From NCBI GenBank assembly GCA_903845155.1, contig CAIMWN010000082.1, positions 1 through 36,824 on the forward strand: a DNA stretch of 36,824 bases, written 5' to 3'. The notes under the pieces are model-generated. The model made no database searches. It was not told the DNA's origin and worked only from the letters and a program-made list of their open reading frames with translations. This DNA is from Oligoflexia bacterium (GTDB lineage Bacteria > Bdellovibrionota > UBA1018 > CAIMNF01). Within the stretch, counting starts at the first letter, position 1. Every line of letters starts with the position of its first letter. Shown piece by piece: positions 3,226-13,784 of the stretch. The translations under genes were made by a program, and so were the position numbers.

Positions 3226-4806
3226 TCACGCGTTCCCGATGGGGAGCTTTGCGAGATTGATTTTATCTTGTGAAAGGAATTTAGTCATATCCACGCCCTT
3301 TTTCATATCCTGAAAAACAAGCTCCGCAATCTCTCCATCCATCAGTAATGGTGAGTTCTTCATCAATGGGGCTGTATCGCTCATACGGCCCAAATAAACC
3401 TCGCGAGCGGCTGGGGTGAGGTATTTTACATAACTAAAAGCGGTACGGTAGAGAACCTCATCTGCATCATTTTGAGTCTGTTCTTTCTCCGTCACCACGC
3501 GATTCAACTGTTCAGAGGCCAGTGTCTTCTTGTACAAAAGGTCAATGGGGGCAAAATTATCGGGGTAATCGAGTTTACCCTCTTCTTTTTCCATCATTGC
3601 TTTGAGAACATGTGCAGGATTACGTGCCACATAACCGCCTTTTAACATGCAAAGCAAAACATCAATCACATGATAAACTTTTGAATATTTCCGGCCAGAA
3701 TATTCCACCACACTTTGATCTTTATCGAGCTTGCGCTCTAATGCTTCCTCATTCACTCCAATCGCTTCAAAAAGTGTTTTGTTGTAAACGATGTTTACCA
3801 TATTCAAGAATCGGGCAATGTGACCTGAGCCCAGTAAATAATTCTCGGGTTGTTCAAATGGAGTGAGTCTCAGAACATGACTCTTCCCTACTTTTAAATA
3901 TTCATTTTTGTAAATTTTCTTTTCTTCTAATTCTTCTAACGCTTTCTCAAGACGAGACATAATCGTACTCGGGTAAAGTTTTCCAGATATTGGAATGAGC
4001 GACGCGAGATCCATGAGTTCAAAATCGATCACACCAGATTCATTTTCAATTTGTTGTTTGAATAAAACCAGACACAGAATTCGTTGCGCAAATCCCACAT
4101 CCAGCTGCTGATAGATTTTTCTGTTAATGGTCGCAGTATAGCTTTTCAACAAATTGGTAAGAATATGACGGCCAATTTTGACGGAGCATGAATCTTGGAT
4201 TTTCGTGCTCCCACGGCTGCTCACAATGGTAGCGTCATCCAGAATATTCATCATTAAGCTGATGTAATCAGCGCGATCTTCGCTGTAATAAGCATTCGTG
4301 GATTCAATTTTTGTAATGCAAAGTTTTTTAATTGAATTTCTGATCTGTTCGTAACTTCTTCCTGAATCATTCATTTTAAGACGCGTGCACACCGTGTTTA
4401 AGCGAAAGTTCACAATTCCAGTTTCAGTTCTTCCCTGTTCATCCCATAAATCCATGAGACAAAAAAGTACCTGCATATCAAAGGCCCCAGGTAGGCCCTC
4501 CTTCACGAGCTTGCCGTCTCTTTCGATTTCTGCCGTCGAGACGGAGATTCTGCTCTTGATCACTGTTCCGTTCTTTAAAACAGGAAGTGAGTGCGTAATA
4601 CGGCCACTCTTATCCGTTTGTTTTTTGTCGAAAGAGAAAATAGGAAGAAGCATAAAATTGGCTTCAACCGAGAAGTTCGGGCGGTTGGAGACATCAAGTT
4701 CATAAGTCCGATTGACTTGCATTAATTCGTTTTTAGGCTCTAATTCAACGATTTCTTTAGACAAGCTTTCAGAGTGGAACAAATCATTTTGTGAATGCTC
4801 TTCCAT
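3226..4806 (-). CDS. repA: Replication initiator (RepA/RPA-like, iteron-binding type)
   Basis: A protein of 526 residues, likely the initiator that binds the neighbouring iterons and opens the origin. Segments such as FDMQVLFCLMDLWDEQG, VCTRLKMNDSGRSYEQIRNSIKKL and FAQRILCLVLFK, followed by a second helical block, look like the paired winged helices of the RPA (PF10134) and Rep_3 initiators. The assignment rests on this resemblance plus the iterons directly upstream. The C-terminal third (about residues 340-526) is longer than in small-plasmid Rep proteins and I do not recognise it. A GGGGGAA box 5 nt before the ATG at 4806 fixes the start; an in-frame ATG at 4836 lies inside iteron 1. That iteron (4823-4840) ends 16 nt before the start codon, which suggests autorepression. 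Confidence 0.78.
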   Translation of the reverse strand: MEEHSQNDLFHSESLSKEIVELEPKNELMQVNRTYELDVSNRPNFSVEANFMLLPIFSFDKKQTDKSGRITHSLPVLKNGTVIKSRISVSTAEIERDGKLVKEGLPGAFDMQVLFCLMDLWDEQGRTETGIVNFRLNTVCTRLKMNDSGRSYEQIRNSIKKLCITKIESTNAYYSEDRADYISLMMNILDDATIVSSRGSTKIQDSCSVKIGRHILTNLLKSYTATINRKIYQQLDVGFAQRILCLVLFKQQIENESGVIDFELMDLASLIPISGKLYPSTIMSRLEKALEELEEKKIYKNEYLKVGKSHVLRLTPFEQPENYLLGSGHIARFLNMVNIVYNKTLFEAIGVNEEALERKLDKDQSVVEYSGRKYSKVYHVIDVLLCMLKGGYVARNPAHVLKAMMEKEEGKLDYPDNFAPIDLLYKKTLASEQLNRVVTEKEQTQNDADEVLYRTAFSYVKYLTPAAREVYLGRMSDTAPLMKNSPLLMDGEIAELVFQDMKKGVDMTKFLSQDKINLAKLPIGNA

Positions 4807-4822
4807 TAGTATTCCCCCACGC

Positions 4823-5437
4823 TTTCGTGTAACCACGGTAGATGATTAATCGGTATTCTGTTCGTAGTAGTAGGTATTTTTTTTATGATAGAAAGAATAC
4901 TTACTAACATACGTTTAGAAAATTCTGCCGAATTCTCCCAAATATTTGTAAATATTGAATTAACGTTTATGCATAAACACGGTGGTTTTTGCGTGTAAAC
5001 ACGGTAAACTTTCGTCCACTCACGGAGAAGCTTTCGTGCAGTCACGAGAGCCTTTTGTGCACCCACGGTACCACTTTCGTGTAAACACGGTAGCAAAATA
5101 CACGAAAACAATTGAAGTTTCGTGCTCTCACGGTAGTCTTTCGTCTGGACACGGCGTACTTTCGTGCAAACACGGTATGGTGGTAAAAAAAGTGAAATGA
5201 GTGATAGAAGGTCCGCTTTCGTGCAGACACGGTCATCGATTTTATAGCCTAAATCGCGGTGAAAAGTCGTACCAACCATGGTTATTCTTAGTCCCTTACT
5301 CACATTGTCAGGGATAATTTTACCTTTCGCAACATCTCTTTCGCAAAAACACGGTATTCTTTCGCTGAAACACGGTTTGATTCTTTCTAACCGTGTTTGC
5401 ACGAAAAAACGATCCATTAAACCGTGTTTGCACGAAA
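4823..5437. repeat. oriV: Replication origin: array of 15 iterons
   Basis: The consensus is TTTCGTGCAAACACGGTA. Plus-orientation copies have CACG starting at 4834, 4978, 5000, 5021, 5043, 5064, 5086, 5129, 5150, 5171, 5228, 5350 and 5371; two inverted copies (AACCGTGTTTGCACGAAA) lie at 5389-5406 and 5420-5437. Spacings in the main block are 22, 21, 22, 21, 22, 43, 21 and 21 bp, two helical turns, with one position skipped near 5107. The two inverted copies are 31 bp apart, about three turns. The core is CGTG-N4-CACG, a dyad with a variable centre (TAAA, CAGT, CTCT, CAGA and others). Copies at 4978, 5021, 5150, 5350 and 5371 are degenerate in the left half. No other gene in this stretch is credible; reading frames across it are produced by the repeats. 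Confidence 0.9.
4841..4975. other. AT-rich candidate unwinding region of the origin
   Basis: This stretch between iteron 1 and the main array is clearly richer in A and T than its surroundings. It contains AATATTT-gt-AAATATT (4941-4956, 7-bp arms) and the 14-bp palindrome GTTTATGCATAAAC (4965-4978), which runs into a degenerate iteron. It is the natural candidate for the DNA unwinding element and for the promoter of the initiator gene, but no promoter can be assigned with confidence and no good DnaA box was found. Confidence 0.5.
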
Positions 5438-5440
5438 ATA

Positions 5441-6060
5441 ATGCGCAGCTCCGCAGCTGAACGGCAAGAGCTTGAAAACAAAATTTTCGATGCGCACGCC
5501 GTAACTCCCAAACAACTCCTTTTGGAAATGTTTGAAATGGCTGATGTGCTCTTTATTGGCGAAGCGAATCACTCAAACTACCGAGCCCTGTCCTACCTGC
5601 AAACGCTTTTAGATGAAGTAGGAAACGACCCAAGACTGAAAACAGTCGTATTAAAGCGCTTCGGAGATCACGACGAATTTTACAGCAAACTTTCGAATCA
5701 ATCTTTAGAAAAGACACTTTCTGAAACCGGCTTTCCCAGTGAAGAATCTCGTCAAATGAGTCTTTGCGGTGGACCACAGTGGGCCTATTCTATAGCGAAT
5801 TTACTTCCGAGTATTCGTCAAATTAATCTGAAAAGAAGGGGGAATCCAATTCTAGTGAGGACGATGGACGGAATGCTTTCCACGCGACCTTTATTTGGAT
5901 GAATTACAGTAATGAAACTTTAGATGGACAAACGACCAGTATTATTTGGTCCGCCTTCAATAATCAAGTAATTTGGTTCAGAGACTATTTGAGCAAAGAT
6001 TTGATTGGTAGTGGATCAGGGAAGCATTTTACCCCATTAAATTTCAGCTTGACTTTATAA
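5441..6060 (+). pseudogene. ChaN/erythromycin-esterase-like gene broken by a frameshift
   Basis: The first frame runs from the ATG at 5441 (MRSSAAERQELENKIFDAHA) to a stop at 5900-5902. It contains VLFIGEANHSNYRALSYLQ, which resembles the GE-x-H motif of the ChaN/TraB/erythromycin-esterase group. From the G-run at 5838-5842 a second frame (open from 5827) continues the protein as ESNSSEDDGRNAFHATFIWMNY to a TAA at 6058-6060. The aromatic, protein-like character of this tail shows that one base, probably a G, is missing. Repaired, it would be about 206 residues with no signal peptide. The ATG lies 4 bp beyond the last iteron, so transcription of this gene would leave the origin directly. The break could be real decay or a homopolymer sequencing error. 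Confidence 0.7.
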
Positions 6061-9225: not shown

Positions 9226-9729
9226 TTAACCCCTCTTCGCTTCCTTCACCCGATTGTATTCAAGAGCATGTTTCTTGAAAAAATCCTGAAGGGCTTCATC
9301 CATGGCGTCTTGCATATTGAGACCAAGGGTGTCGCAGTATTTTTTGAAAAGCGTTTTTGAATCTAAAGTAACTGAATACGTGTGTTTTACGAACTCTTTC
9401 TTCATTCCTTCAAACTTAAGGCCATGCTTTTGAGCAAGCATGATAATTTGATCTTTAGAAAGGGTGTCGCTTGCAGATTTTACTACCGTGTCGGAACTCA
9501 TTACGGTAGCTCTCGCTGTCGTCGGTGTAATGGGTGCTGAATTTAAAACTTCACGCGTTTCCCGAATCGCAGCCGAAGCAGCAATTGTTTCCACGTCATT
9601 ACGGAGTTCAATCATTTTCTTTGGCTCTGGGGCAGAGACCGCCTCTGCCACGGGTTCAGCAGTGATGATGGTTCCGAGTTTTTTCGCTTTTCTTGCCCCA
9701 ATCCCAATATTAAATTCATTCATCGCCAT
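9226..9729 (-). CDS. ParA partner protein, probable ribbon-helix-helix DNA-binding protein
   Basis: A protein of 167 residues whose start ATG overlaps the parA stop (ATGGCGATGA, 10 bp), so it should be translationally coupled. Residues 1-90 are low in hydrophobics and rich in Ala, Glu, Thr and Val, probably flexible, as in partner proteins that stimulate ParA with a mobile N-terminus. A polar helix (SKDQIIMLAQKHGLKFEG) follows. The C-terminal part, HTYSVTLDSKTLFKKYCDTL then NMQDAMDEALQDFFKK, has the strand-helix-helix pattern of RHH proteins: a TYSVTL strand and two helices. It has no ParB HTH or CTPase motif. By position and pattern it should bind the centromere, probably the GTAACAC units upstream of parA. 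The fold is inferred, not proven. Confidence 0.72.
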   Translation of the reverse strand: MAMNEFNIGIGARKAKKLGTIITAEPVAEAVSAPEPKKMIELRNDVETIAASAAIRETREVLNSAPITPTTARATVMSSDTVVKSASDTLSKDQIIMLAQKHGLKFEGMKKEFVKHTYSVTLDSKTLFKKYCDTLGLNMQDAMDEALQDFFKKHALEYNRVKEAKRG

Positions 9730-10478
9730 AATAGCACCTCTTTCGCTAAGTTTTTATAGTCTTCTGCACCAATACTTTTTGAATCAAAACTGAAAATATC
9801 TTGGCCTTTATTGCCGGAAACGCTGAGTTTTACGTTGTCCCTGATCTTTGTCTTCATGACCGCATTTTCAAGTTCATGGCCTTTAAACATTTTTGAAAAG
9901 GCTTCCTGCGTTTTTGAGTTCTTCGTCATGGTGAAAAGGATTCCAGAAACTTTTAATTCTGTATTGTCTTCTTGGATCACTTCTACCGTTTCTAAAAAGT
10001 GGGCAGTGGCTTTTGCATCCATATCATTTGGCTTCATTGGGATCAGAACGTCTTCGGCTGCATTGAGCGAAATTTGCACAAATACACTGAGCGAGGGAGG
10101 TGTATCAATAATGCAATAGTCGTAATTTTTGGTAATTTTACCGAGTAAGGTTTTTAGTCTCATCGGTCCGTCTTTCATTTTCGAAAGCGCACCATCAAAA
10201 GCTGCCAACCGTTCGCAGCCTGGAATTAGGTCTAGGTTCGTTGCAATAGTGACGATAGCCGCATTTGGATCCAATTGGGGGGCGATGAGGAGCTCAGACA
10301 CGGTGACCGTTCCCTCTTCTGTTACATCGACCATAAAGAAGTCAGTTAAACTTTGTTGTGGGTCCATGTCGACCATCAGCACCGACTTCCCTTCGCGGGC
10401 CAATGCCGCTGCAAGGTTTGCTGCTGTGGTGGTCTTCCCCACTCCGCCTTTTCCATTGCTTACCGCAATTCTTCTCAT
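9720..10478 (-). CDS. parA: ParA-family partition ATPase
   Basis: A protein of 252 residues without an N-terminal HTH, so of the short (type Ib-like or Soj-size) class. The deviant Walker A is KGGVGKTT (residues 10-17, signature Lys K10 and catalytic Lys K15). Walker A' is VDMDPQQSLTDF (D37, D39) and Walker B is YCIIDTPPS (D125). The ATPase would form nucleoid-bound patterns that separate replicon copies. GGAG 7 nt upstream supports the ATG at 10478. The next gene overlaps its stop by 10 bp and the operon ends in the terminator at 9141-9173. A possible promoter (TAAACA at 10558-10553, TATATA at 10535-10530, 17 nt apart) lies upstream, with an iteron-like sequence just downstream of the -10. 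Confidence 0.95.
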   Translation of the reverse strand: MRRIAVSNGKGGVGKTTTAANLAAALAREGKSVLMVDMDPQQSLTDFFMVDVTEEGTVTVSELLIAPQLDPNAAIVTIATNLDLIPGCERLAAFDGALSKMKDGPMRLKTLLGKITKNYDYCIIDTPPSLSVFVQISLNAAEDVLIPMKPNDMDAKATAHFLETVEVIQEDNTELKVSGILFTMTKNSKTQEAFSKMFKGHELENAVMKTKIRDNVKLSVSGNKGQDIFSFDSKSIGAEDYKNLAKEVLLWR

Positions 10479-10505: not shown

Positions 10506-10558
10506 TTACCGTGTTTCCGAAATAAAACTTATATATGAAGTGTATAAAATATTGTTTA
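10506..10558 (-). promoter_or_regulatory. parA promoter with iteron-like site
   Basis: On the minus strand TAAACA (10558-10553) and TATATA (10535-10530) are 17 nt apart. Immediately downstream, at 10507-10521 on the plus strand, ACCGTGTTTCCGAAA matches the inverted iteron ACCGTGTTTGCACGAAA except for two missing bases and one change. A binding initiator there would block transcription of parA. The link is inferred from the sequence match. Confidence 0.45.
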
Positions 10559-10687: not shown

Positions 10688-10815
10688 GTAACAGTGAAAA
10701 GTGTTACATCGCGGTGTTGAAAGAGTGGTGTTACTCAAAAGTAACACCTGTTTTCGTTCAAGAATTTACAATTACGATCAAGAGTAAAGCGCGCAGTAAC
10801 ACCTAAAAGTAACAC
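10688..10815. repeat. parS: Candidate centromere (parS): three 20-bp units of GTAACAC heptamers
   Basis: Each unit is heptamer, NNAAAA, heptamer, with the heptamers 13 bp apart. Unit 1 (10688-10707) has GTAACAG, TGAAAA, GTGTTAC. Unit 2 (10728-10747) has GTGTTAC, TCAAAA, GTAACAC. Unit 3 (10796-10815) has GTAACAC, CTAAAA, GTAACAC. The three units show convergent, divergent and tandem orientation. Unit 2 is part of a perfect 9-bp inverted repeat (10727-10748). The position upstream of parA, as in many type Ib systems, and the RHH-like partner support a centromere or operator role. Confidence 0.65.
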
Positions 10816-10887
10816 CGACAAAATTGGTGATGAAAAAATAGTGGTCTCGATTGCCACACGGGCAGGTGTATCGCCCTTGCTCCTGGT

Positions 10888-11322
10888 TCATACCTCAACG
10901 GAAGAGGGTTTAAATTTTGAGAGGTAGGCTTCCACTGCCGATCGAAGAAATCTGCGATGTCCACCAGGGGTCGCTTGAAATTTGAGTTCACCTCGTTCGG
11001 CGAGTCTTCGAACGGTTTCGTCCGAAACACGAATGAGTCGAGCAACTTCACTTGTTGAGAGGGTATCGCTTTCAGCAATCGAAAAGACAGCTTTCGAGCG
11101 GGTAGGGGAGGGCAGTGTTTGTTGGGAAGAAGTCATGAGGTTCATCTTCGAGGCTAGTTCCCGTCGTACCTTCATGATGAGCATCTCTGTCTGTCCTACG
11201 TCGCTTGGGCGATAGGGCTCTGCAACTCGATAATCAAAGTCGGGTGAATAGATCGTAAGGTAGGGATCGATTACTTGAATGACTAAGGGGTACTTTTCAG
11301 GGCTAAACGTCTTGTTTTTCAT
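10888..11322 (-). CDS. Excisionase/MerR-type HTH DNA-binding protein
   Basis: A protein of 144 residues. The C-terminal part, LSTSEVARLIRVSDETVRRL then AERGELKFQATPGGHRRFLR, is a clear excisionase/HTH_17 winged helix with the GGHRRF wing seen in MerR-like proteins. The N-terminal part (YPLVIQVIDPYLTIYSPDF) resembles the short strands of HicB-like domains, and a helix (SDVGQTEMLIMKVRRELASKM) and a polar linker follow. AAAAGGAATTCC upstream of the ATG at 11322 favours that start over one at 11349. It is read leftward, 409 bp upstream of parA, across the GTAACAC units. It may regulate the par operon or be an adaptor of the replicon. The HicB resemblance is weak. Confidence 0.72.
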   Translation of the reverse strand: MKNKTFSPEKYPLVIQVIDPYLTIYSPDFDYRVAEPYRPSDVGQTEMLIMKVRRELASKMNLMTSSQQTLPSPTRSKAVFSIAESDTLSTSEVARLIRVSDETVRRLAERGELKFQATPGGHRRFLRSAVEAYLSKFKPSSVEV

Positions 11323-11567
11323 GCGGAATTCCTTTTCCAACATCACCATTCACAGCTATTAAAAATACTAGAACAACTTAATTCTCTCAAAACCCACAAA
11401 AACTGCAAGCCTCACTTTGTGTTTTAACGTCAAATTTTTATTTATTTTTTGAATAGAATAGGAATTCGTTCATCATTGGTTCCCCATTATCAAAAACAGG
11501 AAAGCTGATGAAGTGAAAAAACTTTTTGTCGCATCGCGCAATCTTGCGTGATTGGCGCGTTCTAGGT

Positions 11568-12044: not shown

Positions 12045-13784
12045 TTATTTCTTTGAATGAGCTCTTTTGAGGCGGGCATGAAGAGCGCTCGCTTTTGCAG
12101 GAGTCAGGCTTGGATGTTTCTTCGACACAGCCAAGAAGTCATAGTCACCTGCGAGATAGATACTTACGTTGGTTCCAAGTGCCTTCAGTTGAAGAGGTTT
12201 CTTCGTGGCAGTGGTTTTACGCTTTCTCGATGCTTTTCTTGAACTCATGGAGAATGACTTTGCCGTTACAGCAAGGGTCGTTCTTCCTAACTTACCTGCA
12301 CCATGGTTGATCGCTGGTCGGCCTGCCAATAGACCACCTGTGCTTGTAGCATAAGTTGCGCAACCATCAGACAATCCAGATTGGTATGCAGTTGCATAGG
12401 CAGTGTTGTAACCATCTGTATAACCTGTTTGGTATTGATCAGTATAGCCTGCGTTGTATGAATCGTTGTAGCTCGTAGCATATGCACTTGCATAGGCGGA
12501 AGCATAGGCTGCTGCATAGGCGGGCGCATTTCCGGAAGCGTATCCAGACGCATACCCTGCCTGATAGGTTTGAGCAGAGGAACTGTTGTACGCTCCTTGA
12601 TAAGCGATTGCATAAGCCGTGTTGTATGCAGTGGTGTACACCGAGTTGTAAGCTGCATTGTATGCACTAGAATACGCGCTTGCGTAAGTTGCATTGTATC
12701 CGTCGTTGTAACCAGCAGGCGCACCTGCTGCTGTTCCATCAGCTTGACCTTGTGTAATGGTCGTGTAGTCGTTTAAGCCAGCACTGTATCCGGTCGCATA
12801 CGAAGTTAGTCCTGGTGGTACCGTAGTGGCAGCAGCATAGCCACGATTGTAACTCGTATTATCCCGTGCAGAATTATAACCACTGATGTAACAAGCGTCA
12901 GTCGTAGTTCCTGATCCTCCTAATGTTCCGGGTTTACCAGCATACTTGGTGCTCATTCCAACTGGTTTATTCCAGTTGGTGAAACCATTGGTGGGAGCGG
13001 CTCTTCCTGCTGTGCATCCTGTTCCAGCACTTCCATCAGTATAACCTGCATTGTATCCATCCGTGTTTCCATCGGTGTCGCCGAGGGTGTTCCCTGCATT
13101 GTAACCCGCAGTTTGTCCTGGAGAATACCCATCGTTGGTTCCATCTGCGTTACCAGCAGTGTCTCCAGCGTTAGTTCCATCAGTGGTACCGGCAGCTTCA
13201 CCCGCTGCAGTTCCATCGCTGACGCCTTGATTGTAAGAAGCAAGGCCATCGGCAGCACCATGGCTCGCGCCATCTGTTGTTCCAAGTGAGGTACCATCGT
13301 TTTGTCCGTCAGTGGTTCCTACTGAAGTACCATTGGTGTAGCCCACAGAGTTTCCATCGGCCTGTCCTAGAGACACGTTAGAATTATAGGAACTGGTATA
13401 AGCTGCATTGTAAGCATTGTGATAAGCCGCATAGAGCCCAGCATTTTTACCGTCATTGTATGCATTTGCATCCCCGTCGGTAATTCCTTTGTTATAGTCA
13501 GTTTGATTGTCAGCAATTGCTTGCTGTTTACCTAAGTCATAATTTGAGCCGGCACTTCGGTCGCATGGAGTAGCCGTGGGTGTCGAATGCGGTGTCGGCG
13601 TTGGAGTCGGTGTTGGGGTTGCTGGCGTTGGAGTGGGTGTTACAGTAGGAGTGGGAGTGGGTGTTACAGTAGGAGTGGGAGTGGGTCCAGGGCCCGTTAC
13701 TGCTTTCTTACATGCAGGCACTACGAGAAAAGTGCTGAGGACTAACAAACTTACAGCCATAGAGCTCTGATAAAACTTTTTCAT
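12045..13784 (-). CDS. Large lipoprotein of Gly/Ala-x3 tetrapeptide repeats
   Basis: A protein of 579 residues. The N-terminus (MKKFYQSSMAVSLLVLSTFL then VVPAC) gives a probable lipobox with C25 as lipid site; the Pro at -2 is unusual. A Pro-Thr linker (about 30-70) follows. Residues about 85-250 and 310-480 keep a small residue (Gly or Ala) at nearly every fourth position, e.g. GTTDGTNAGDTAGNADGTND and AYNAAYNSVYTTAYNTAYAI. The first block is Gly/Asp-rich and the second Ala/Tyr-rich. A basic Ser/Lys tail (SRKASRKRKTTATKK) and a short folded end (LAGDYDFLAVSKKH) close the protein. The pattern resembles the deca-GX3 motif of Yae1/Lto1, repeated many times. A surface fibre or scaffold is possible. 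Long frames in other phases come from the 12-nt DNA periodicity. Confidence 0.75.
   Translation of the reverse strand: MKKFYQSSMAVSLLVLSTFLVVPACKKAVTGPGPTPTPTVTPTPTPTVTPTPTPATPTPTPTPTPHSTPTATPCDRSAGSNYDLGKQQAIADNQTDYNKGITDGDANAYNDGKNAGLYAAYHNAYNAAYTSSYNSNVSLGQADGNSVGYTNGTSVGTTDGQNDGTSLGTTDGASHGAADGLASYNQGVSDGTAAGEAAGTTDGTNAGDTAGNADGTNDGYSPGQTAGYNAGNTLGDTDGNTDGYNAGYTDGSAGTGCTAGRAAPTNGFTNWNKPVGMSTKYAGKPGTLGGSGTTTDACYISGYNSARDNTSYNRGYAAATTVPPGLTSYATGYSAGLNDYTTITQGQADGTAAGAPAGYNDGYNATYASAYSSAYNAAYNSVYTTAYNTAYAIAYQGAYNSSSAQTYQAGYASGYASGNAPAYAAAYASAYASAYATSYNDSYNAGYTDQYQTGYTDGYNTAYATAYQSGLSDGCATYATSTGGLLAGRPAINHGAGKLGRTTLAVTAKSFSMSSRKASRKRKTTATKKPLQLKALGTNVSIYLAGDYDFLAVSKKHPSLTPAKASALHARLKRAHSKK

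Follow-up and report, generated by a model that had tools for sequence, protein, structure and literature searches.

What is the function of the dense array of short repeats that lies directly upstream of a putative initiator gene in a draft genome of an Oligoflexia bacterium? The window, i.e., the whole stretch of DNA that was analyzed, is one entire contig of 36,824 bases (G000:C82) from an assembly of 4.29 Mb in 337 contigs. The initial annotation had interpreted the interval 4823-5437 as an iteron origin, and this interpretation is in agreement with the adjacent initiator gene, the conserved phased array, an AT-rich unwinding segment, an iteron copy ahead of rep, and partition genes nearby. 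The repeats of the interval are real, but its borders were drawn too narrowly, because rep itself and a pair of intragenic copies also belong to it. We consider it very likely that the region is a theta-type, iteron-controlled origin of a plasmid or a secondary chromosome, which is driven by the adjacent initiator of the RPA family. The following features were identified upstream of rep:

4822-4841, plus strand: iteron on the rep side of the unwinding segment, ahead of the start codon, a presumed operator (score 25.7; at the same place in the related loci L017, 5966, and L018, 1487)
4966-4985, plus strand: iteron 1 of the six that are proximal to the unwinding element, with a degenerate left half (score 11.8, expected 0.004 per 200 bp; position matched in L017)
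4988-5093, plus strand: iterons 2 to 6 (starts 4988, 5009, 5031, 5052, and 5074)
5094-5116, no strand: skipped iteron position, skipped in L017 too
5117-5178, plus strand: iterons 7 to 9 (starts 5117, 5138, and 5159)
5216-5235, plus strand: distal iteron, out of phase, for which no counterpart was found in L017
5338-5378, plus strand: two distal iterons 21 bp apart (5338 and 5359), variant TTTCGC (L017 counterparts 5466 and 5487)
5388-5438, minus strand: two inverted iterons 31 bp apart (5388 and 5419; L017 counterparts 5384 and 5424)

The nine CACG starts that had been reported for the main block (4978, 5000, 5021, 5043, 5064, 5086, 5129, 5150, and 5171) and the steps between them (22, 21, 22, 21, 22, 43, 21, and 21 bp) were reproduced exactly in a recount, and the same is true for the inversion of the last two copies and their distance of 31 bp. 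The spacing of the eight clear array copies is described by a period of 21.44 bp, corresponding to two turns of about 10.7 bp. The step of 43 bp had been attributed to one missing copy, and L017, the Rep of which is 63-66% identical, indeed skips the same position. The degenerate copy at 4966, which has its CACG at 4978 and retains the right half-site only, occupies the sixth place of the block proximal to the unwinding element. The distal copies at 5216, 5338, 5359, 5388, and 5419 are out of phase, with distances of 5.3, 16.7, 18.7, 21.4, and 24.3 turns from the copy at 5159. With up to three mismatches allowed, TTTCGTGNNNNCACGGT has 26 matches in the window, versus 9.06 +/- 3.31 expected and a maximum of 18 in 100 shuffles. 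Fifteen of the 26 matches lie within 4823-5437, and one of these fifteen is a reverse reading of the copy at 5032. The annotated claim that each iteron contains the dyad CGTG-N4-CACG could not be upheld: the dyad is perfect in nine of the 15 copies, and in five of the nine that had been listed first. Nor is a palindromic core the defining oddity of the array, because the dyad is incomplete and, by inspection, absent from the iterons of the other, more distant Rep groups. The CACG half-site is kept in all 15 copies, none of which contains the Dam site GATC. The flanks are asymmetric, with CTTT on one side and GGTA on the other, and the iteron is therefore a polar site with an inner partial dyad.

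The layout is conserved in two loci from an Oligoflexia metagenome bin, the nearest named relative that was found. L017 (the same locus as L010/L020) has the same iteron sequence as the window and a period of 21.46 bp. Its features follow in the same order: one copy just ahead of rep, the AT-rich gap, a block of six iterons, the skip, a block of three, a variant pair, and an inverted pair. The window contains one extra copy, at 5216. In L018, which encodes a Rep that is 44-45% identical, the iteron reads TGTCCTTACACGGAA instead, and a TGTGG subtype is also present. Six copies at steps of 22, 21, 22, 21, and 22 bp adjoin the AT-rich gap (period 21.54), one copy precedes the start codon, and inverted copies are located at the far end. 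Inverted pairs, 32 bp apart, are also present in L033, L034, and L035. A profile search with Rep yielded 25 matches in 21 of the 368 genomes of the phylum, and the family is represented in five of the 12 genomes of the genus. An iteron-like array lies upstream of rep for 23 of the 25 matches in the phylum (the short upstream stretch of L050 contains none, and L051 was left out of the count), and the array sequences differ between groups. No close relatives were found in viral contigs, neither by profile nor by iteron pattern, and no DNA similarity to the origin was found among plasmids. Another iteron origin was observed in L065 (G166:C16), where positions 1-2086 comprise ten copies of CGTTTTACC and a ParB-like gene. 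The Rep-like gene of L065 has no Pfam match; the gene and the CGTTTTACC copies were found through the pattern of unwinding repeats that is described below.

A cassette with predicted partition functions is located on the same contig:

9226-9729, minus strand: gene for a small ribbon-helix-helix-like protein, the presumed partner of ParA (weak Pfam RHH match, E 0.0016, below the cut-off)
9720-10478, minus strand: gene for a ParA-type partition ATPase (Pfam AAA_31, E 9e-44; NCBIfam ParA_partition, E 4e-36, below the cut-off of that model)
10888-11349, minus strand: gene for a helix-turn-helix protein upstream of parA (HTH_17, E 9e-13)

In L020, parA, the small gene, and the helix-turn-helix gene have the same order. 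The region upstream of parA contains AGTAACACC repeats (10737-10820), a candidate partition site, and a weak iteron-like site at 10506-10525 (score 10.1); a strong iteron-like site is present upstream of parA in L020 (14194-14213, with 0.0017 expected in the L020 contig). Further along the window, 12045-13784 encodes a low-complexity repetitive protein of 579 aa, with G..DG and Y.AAY runs behind a lipoprotein-like signal. Direct-repeat centromeres are used by some plasmids, and the partition genes are only 4-6 kb away from the array, so that it could be argued that the array is itself a partition site, or a regulatory operator array, which is bound by the small ribbon-helix-helix-like protein or another regulator. 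We regard this as very unlikely, because the array changes with Rep: from one Rep lineage to another the iteron sequence shifts, but not the position of the array beside rep. Moreover, copies are located directly upstream of rep and within rep, the repeats in the par promoter region of the window are different ones (AGTAACACC), and L065 has a ParB-like gene instead, yet its array lies beside the Rep-like gene. The initiator gene and its features are as follows:

3226-4806, minus strand: rep, encoding a replication initiator of 526 aa (ATG at 4806, with a GGGGG ribosome-binding-like stretch upstream)
4777-4791, minus strand: codons 6-10 of rep, encoding QNDLF, a motif in the N terminus that resembles sliding-clamp-binding motifs
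4389-4408, minus strand: intragenic iteron at the FRLNTV codons, facing the other way from the main array (L017 counterpart 6411)
4200-4219, plus strand: second iteron in rep at the codons for SRGSTK (L017 counterpart 6600, HRGNTK; absent in L018)

The reading frame of rep is open, and the protein matches the Pfam family RPA (PF10134, replication initiator protein A) with an E-value of 4e-8 and 33.5 bits, above the curated cut-off of 27. Among annotated plasmids there were six matches, TrfA/RepA proteins of Rubrobacter and Deinococcus, which are 24-27% identical over at most 47% of the protein. Searches with Rep of the PDB sequences and of NCBIfam had no result, and profile A2 retrieved no initiator from the PDB sequences up to E 10, but three unrelated weak matches. 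The AlphaFold2 model of Rep, for which three sequences were used as input, is of low confidence (mean pLDDT 58.5, pTM 0.39). With this weak model, the sole Foldseek matches with E <= 0.001 were three chains of RctB domains 2-3 (E 3.5e-5). VIA, with the same low-confidence model, also placed RctB domains 2-3 first (Z 11.8 over 249 residues, model residues 45-324), followed by other winged-helix Rep proteins, including RepE (8ac8, Z 7.6) and pi (2nra, Z 6.2). TrfA was not among the Foldseek and VIA matches, which is no argument against a relation to TrfA. The model weakly suggests that Rep contains two winged-helix domains with an RctB-like fold. The strict motif Q.[SDAEN]LF occurs within the first 45 residues of seven of the 25 Reps, and elsewhere once in 11,790 residues. 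TrfA is stated to bind the sliding clamp through a clamp-binding motif in one report on this protein (PMC4980987), and by analogy QNDLF may be a clamp binder.

The two iterons inside rep had been missed by the initial annotation. The rep gene of L018 carries an iteron of the L018 type at the codons for FRLTTI (1899). The chance that synonymous codons yield an equally high score at the FRLNTV site is 0.0066 for the window, 5.2e-5 for L017, and 1.1e-4 for L018, and at the 4200 site it is 0.0026 for the window and 0.0036 for L017, with a null derived solely from the codons that these three rep genes use. Two codon changes follow the change of the iteron, from TTT to TTC (phenylalanine) and from ACG to ACA (threonine). 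However, the intragenic copy of L018 fits the minor subtype TGTGG, which is represented by three of the 12 upstream copies considered and resembles the window type; therefore, shared descent is possible, and the tracking of the iteron change is suggestive rather than proven. In more distant Reps the iteron at the FRLNTV codons was not found, and their sole intragenic copies are located at the 5' end of the open reading frame (L033, L034, L035, and L038). A literature search for iterons inside rep genes revealed no paper describing such sites by title among the matches listed.

Between the presumed operator and the six proximal iterons lies the segment that would be unwound:

4842-4965, no strand: AT-rich DNA unwinding element (DUE), in which the 60-bp and the 100-bp windows of lowest stability within 4806-5450 are located
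4865-4906, no strand: inverted TTAC/GTAA-type repeats in the DUE (AGTAAGTA...TACCTACTA on the minus strand; TAGTAGTAG on the plus strand, 4865-4873)

The pattern AGTANGTA-N12-30-TACNTACTA was found at 24 distinct places, with overlapping rows counted once, in 23 of the 368 genomes. Seven of these places are in iteron/Rep origins (G000, G005 C376, G211, two in G216, G219, and G166 C16), and the 60-bp stability minimum overlaps the repeats in six of six origins, which had been picked because they carry them. The element was at first taken for a palindrome only, and this was abandoned after more origins had been scanned: what they have in common is a TTAC-type tandem, of which the palindrome is a subset. 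The wider set of 24 origins comprises those of 23 of the 25 Rep matches and of L065; L050 and L051 were omitted because of short upstream DNA or a longest frame that is not evidently Rep. In 17 of these 24 origins, versus 2.2 expected, TACWTAC is found no more than 30 bp away from the stability minimum, but many positive origins are close relatives, so that these are not 17 independent cases; the origins with TACWTAC fall into about seven groups. In total, the 24 origins contain 47 hits, compared to 5.6 expected. TACWTAC is absent from the 1 kb upstream in L033, L034, L035, and L041, despite their iteron arrays, and in L039, L040, and L054 it is present but away from the stability minimum. TTAC-type repeats are common to origins whose iterons differ. 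Against the reading as an origin, no consensus promoter could be identified in the interval from the DUE to rep, the origin region of the window contains no perfect DnaA box, but three hits with one mismatch, and the GC-skew minimum of the window is near 10 kb and not at the iteron array.

An alternative for the opened strand, which is compatible with an iteron origin, is that the repeats are DnaA-trios, a motif that has been described (PMC10797057), and that host DnaA rather than Rep holds the single strand. DnaA may read TAGTAGTAG on the plus strand of the window, because CTACTACTACTA stands beside AT-rich DNA between dnaA and dnaN both in this genome (L058) and in G264 (L055). However, no perfect DnaA box adjoins, most relatives show TTAC repeats with a periodicity of 4 bp and not trios of 3 bp, and inverted elements on both strands are frequent. 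We judge the involvement of DnaA-trios to be possible, but the less probable case. In their own right, L058 (2860-2925) and L055 (1570-1610), where CTACTACTACTA lies beside TATATATA, are candidate chromosomal origins with DnaA-trios.

It could also be that a dead or integrated plasmid origin resides in a chromosome. The contig is linear as assembled, its ends do not overlap, many of its genes look like ordinary chromosomal genes, and the assembly, with its 337 contigs, is a draft. A dead or integrated origin is at variance with the open rep frame and with the conservation of the array, the DUE, and the intragenic copies, which argues for selection. It is also disfavored by the genome size of 4.29 Mb, versus 2.1-3.4 Mb in the 11 genus mates, and by G264, a complete-looking relative with two contigs, which has dnaA on a contig of 3.80 Mb and Rep on a separate contig of 209 kb, an arrangement that fits a secondary replicon. 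We regard a dead or integrated origin as improbable.

Known systems offer three comparisons for the proposed origin. In the published accounts of Vibrio ori2, six 12-mers follow one another head to tail with spacings of 10 or 11 bp; the DUE beside them contains ATCA single-strand repeats, the rctB promoter harbors a site through which rctB is repressed, and inhibitory sites lie in the flanks (PMC6090056, PMC11711613). Compared to these accounts of Vibrio chromosome 2, the window likewise has six head-to-tail iterons at steps of about two turns beside a DUE with tetranucleotide repeats, an extra candidate initiator site ahead of the initiator gene, and putative flanking regulatory sites, and RctB is the best fold match of the weak Rep model. 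However, the iterons are of unrelated sequence and lack GATC, the flanking sites are iteron copies and not 29/39-mers, the DUE repeats are of the TTAC type and not ATCA, and the profile search of PDB sequences had no sequence-level match to RctB. Membership in the RctB class is not claimed, because no sequence relation was found and the iterons lack GATC. With RK2-type TrfA/RepA plasmids the window shares an initiator of the RPA family, iterons beside the initiator gene, and an N-terminal clamp-binding-like motif. In contrast to them, its Rep is longer, with a C-terminal half outside of the Pfam match, and iterons and layout differ, including the copies within rep. The F plasmid (RepE) and R6K (pi) have a winged-helix initiator fold like that predicted for Rep, but the match is weaker than that to RctB and mostly confined to the first winged-helix domain. 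The arrangement of ori2 with other sequences suggests that the window works like an RctB/TrfA/RepE origin.

We propose the following mechanism. Rep, for which two winged-helix domains are predicted, probably occupies the polar iterons in monomeric form, always in one direction and at steps of 21-22 bp, i.e., two turns. Once the six DUE-proximal sites are filled, the AT-rich segment 4842-4965 would open, and one of its single strands would be held by Rep or DnaA via the TTAC-type tetranucleotide repeats, comparable to RctB and the ATCA repeats at ori2. The N-terminal QNDLF may recruit the sliding clamp, and the copy at 4822 may serve to repress rep. The distal, inverted, and intragenic copies would limit the copy number, either through titration of Rep or through the pairing of origins (handcuffing).

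Isolated perfect consensus iterons were observed on two other contigs, G000:C216:1393-1412 (L019) and G003:C64:5589-5607 (L098:1501-1519), with 2e-5 (C216) and 9e-5 (G003) expected per genome. No Rep was found in G003. Chance had been considered for the C216 copy, with an estimated 0.5 or so expected for 12 specified bases, and was rejected because the complete score over 20 bases has an expectation of just 2e-5 per genome. The isolated iterons may be control sites (crtS-like), parts of the same replicon, or remnants. As a speculative extension, which we think is rather doubtful, the iteron replicons of the phylum might split two codes. The double-strand code of the iterons would diverge with each Rep lineage, while the single-strand code of the TTAC-type DUE would be fixed, being read by a shared factor or a conserved Rep surface. 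In addition, Rep sites would be embedded in rep by codon choice, and the isolated iterons at G000:C216:1393 and G003:C64:5589 would be crtS-like.

Searches of the open-access literature found no paper on iteron- or RctB-type plasmid replication in Bdellovibrio, and a broader search found none on the Oligoflexia/Bdellovibrio-related group by title among the matches listed. The replication of secondary replicons seems to be almost undescribed in Bdellovibrio-related (Oligoflexia) bacteria. The proposed mechanism is familiar, with a few conserved details that we had not met before. The TTAC-type DUE repeats, the iterons inside rep at conserved codons, and the clamp-binding-like N terminus of Rep had escaped the initial annotation. 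The compact and conserved origin is a candidate vector origin for Oligoflexia. If the proposed reading is true, an RctB-like initiator would exist outside of the Vibrio group, and its combination of variable iterons with constant unwinding repeats would make double-strand and single-strand recognition separable in tests.
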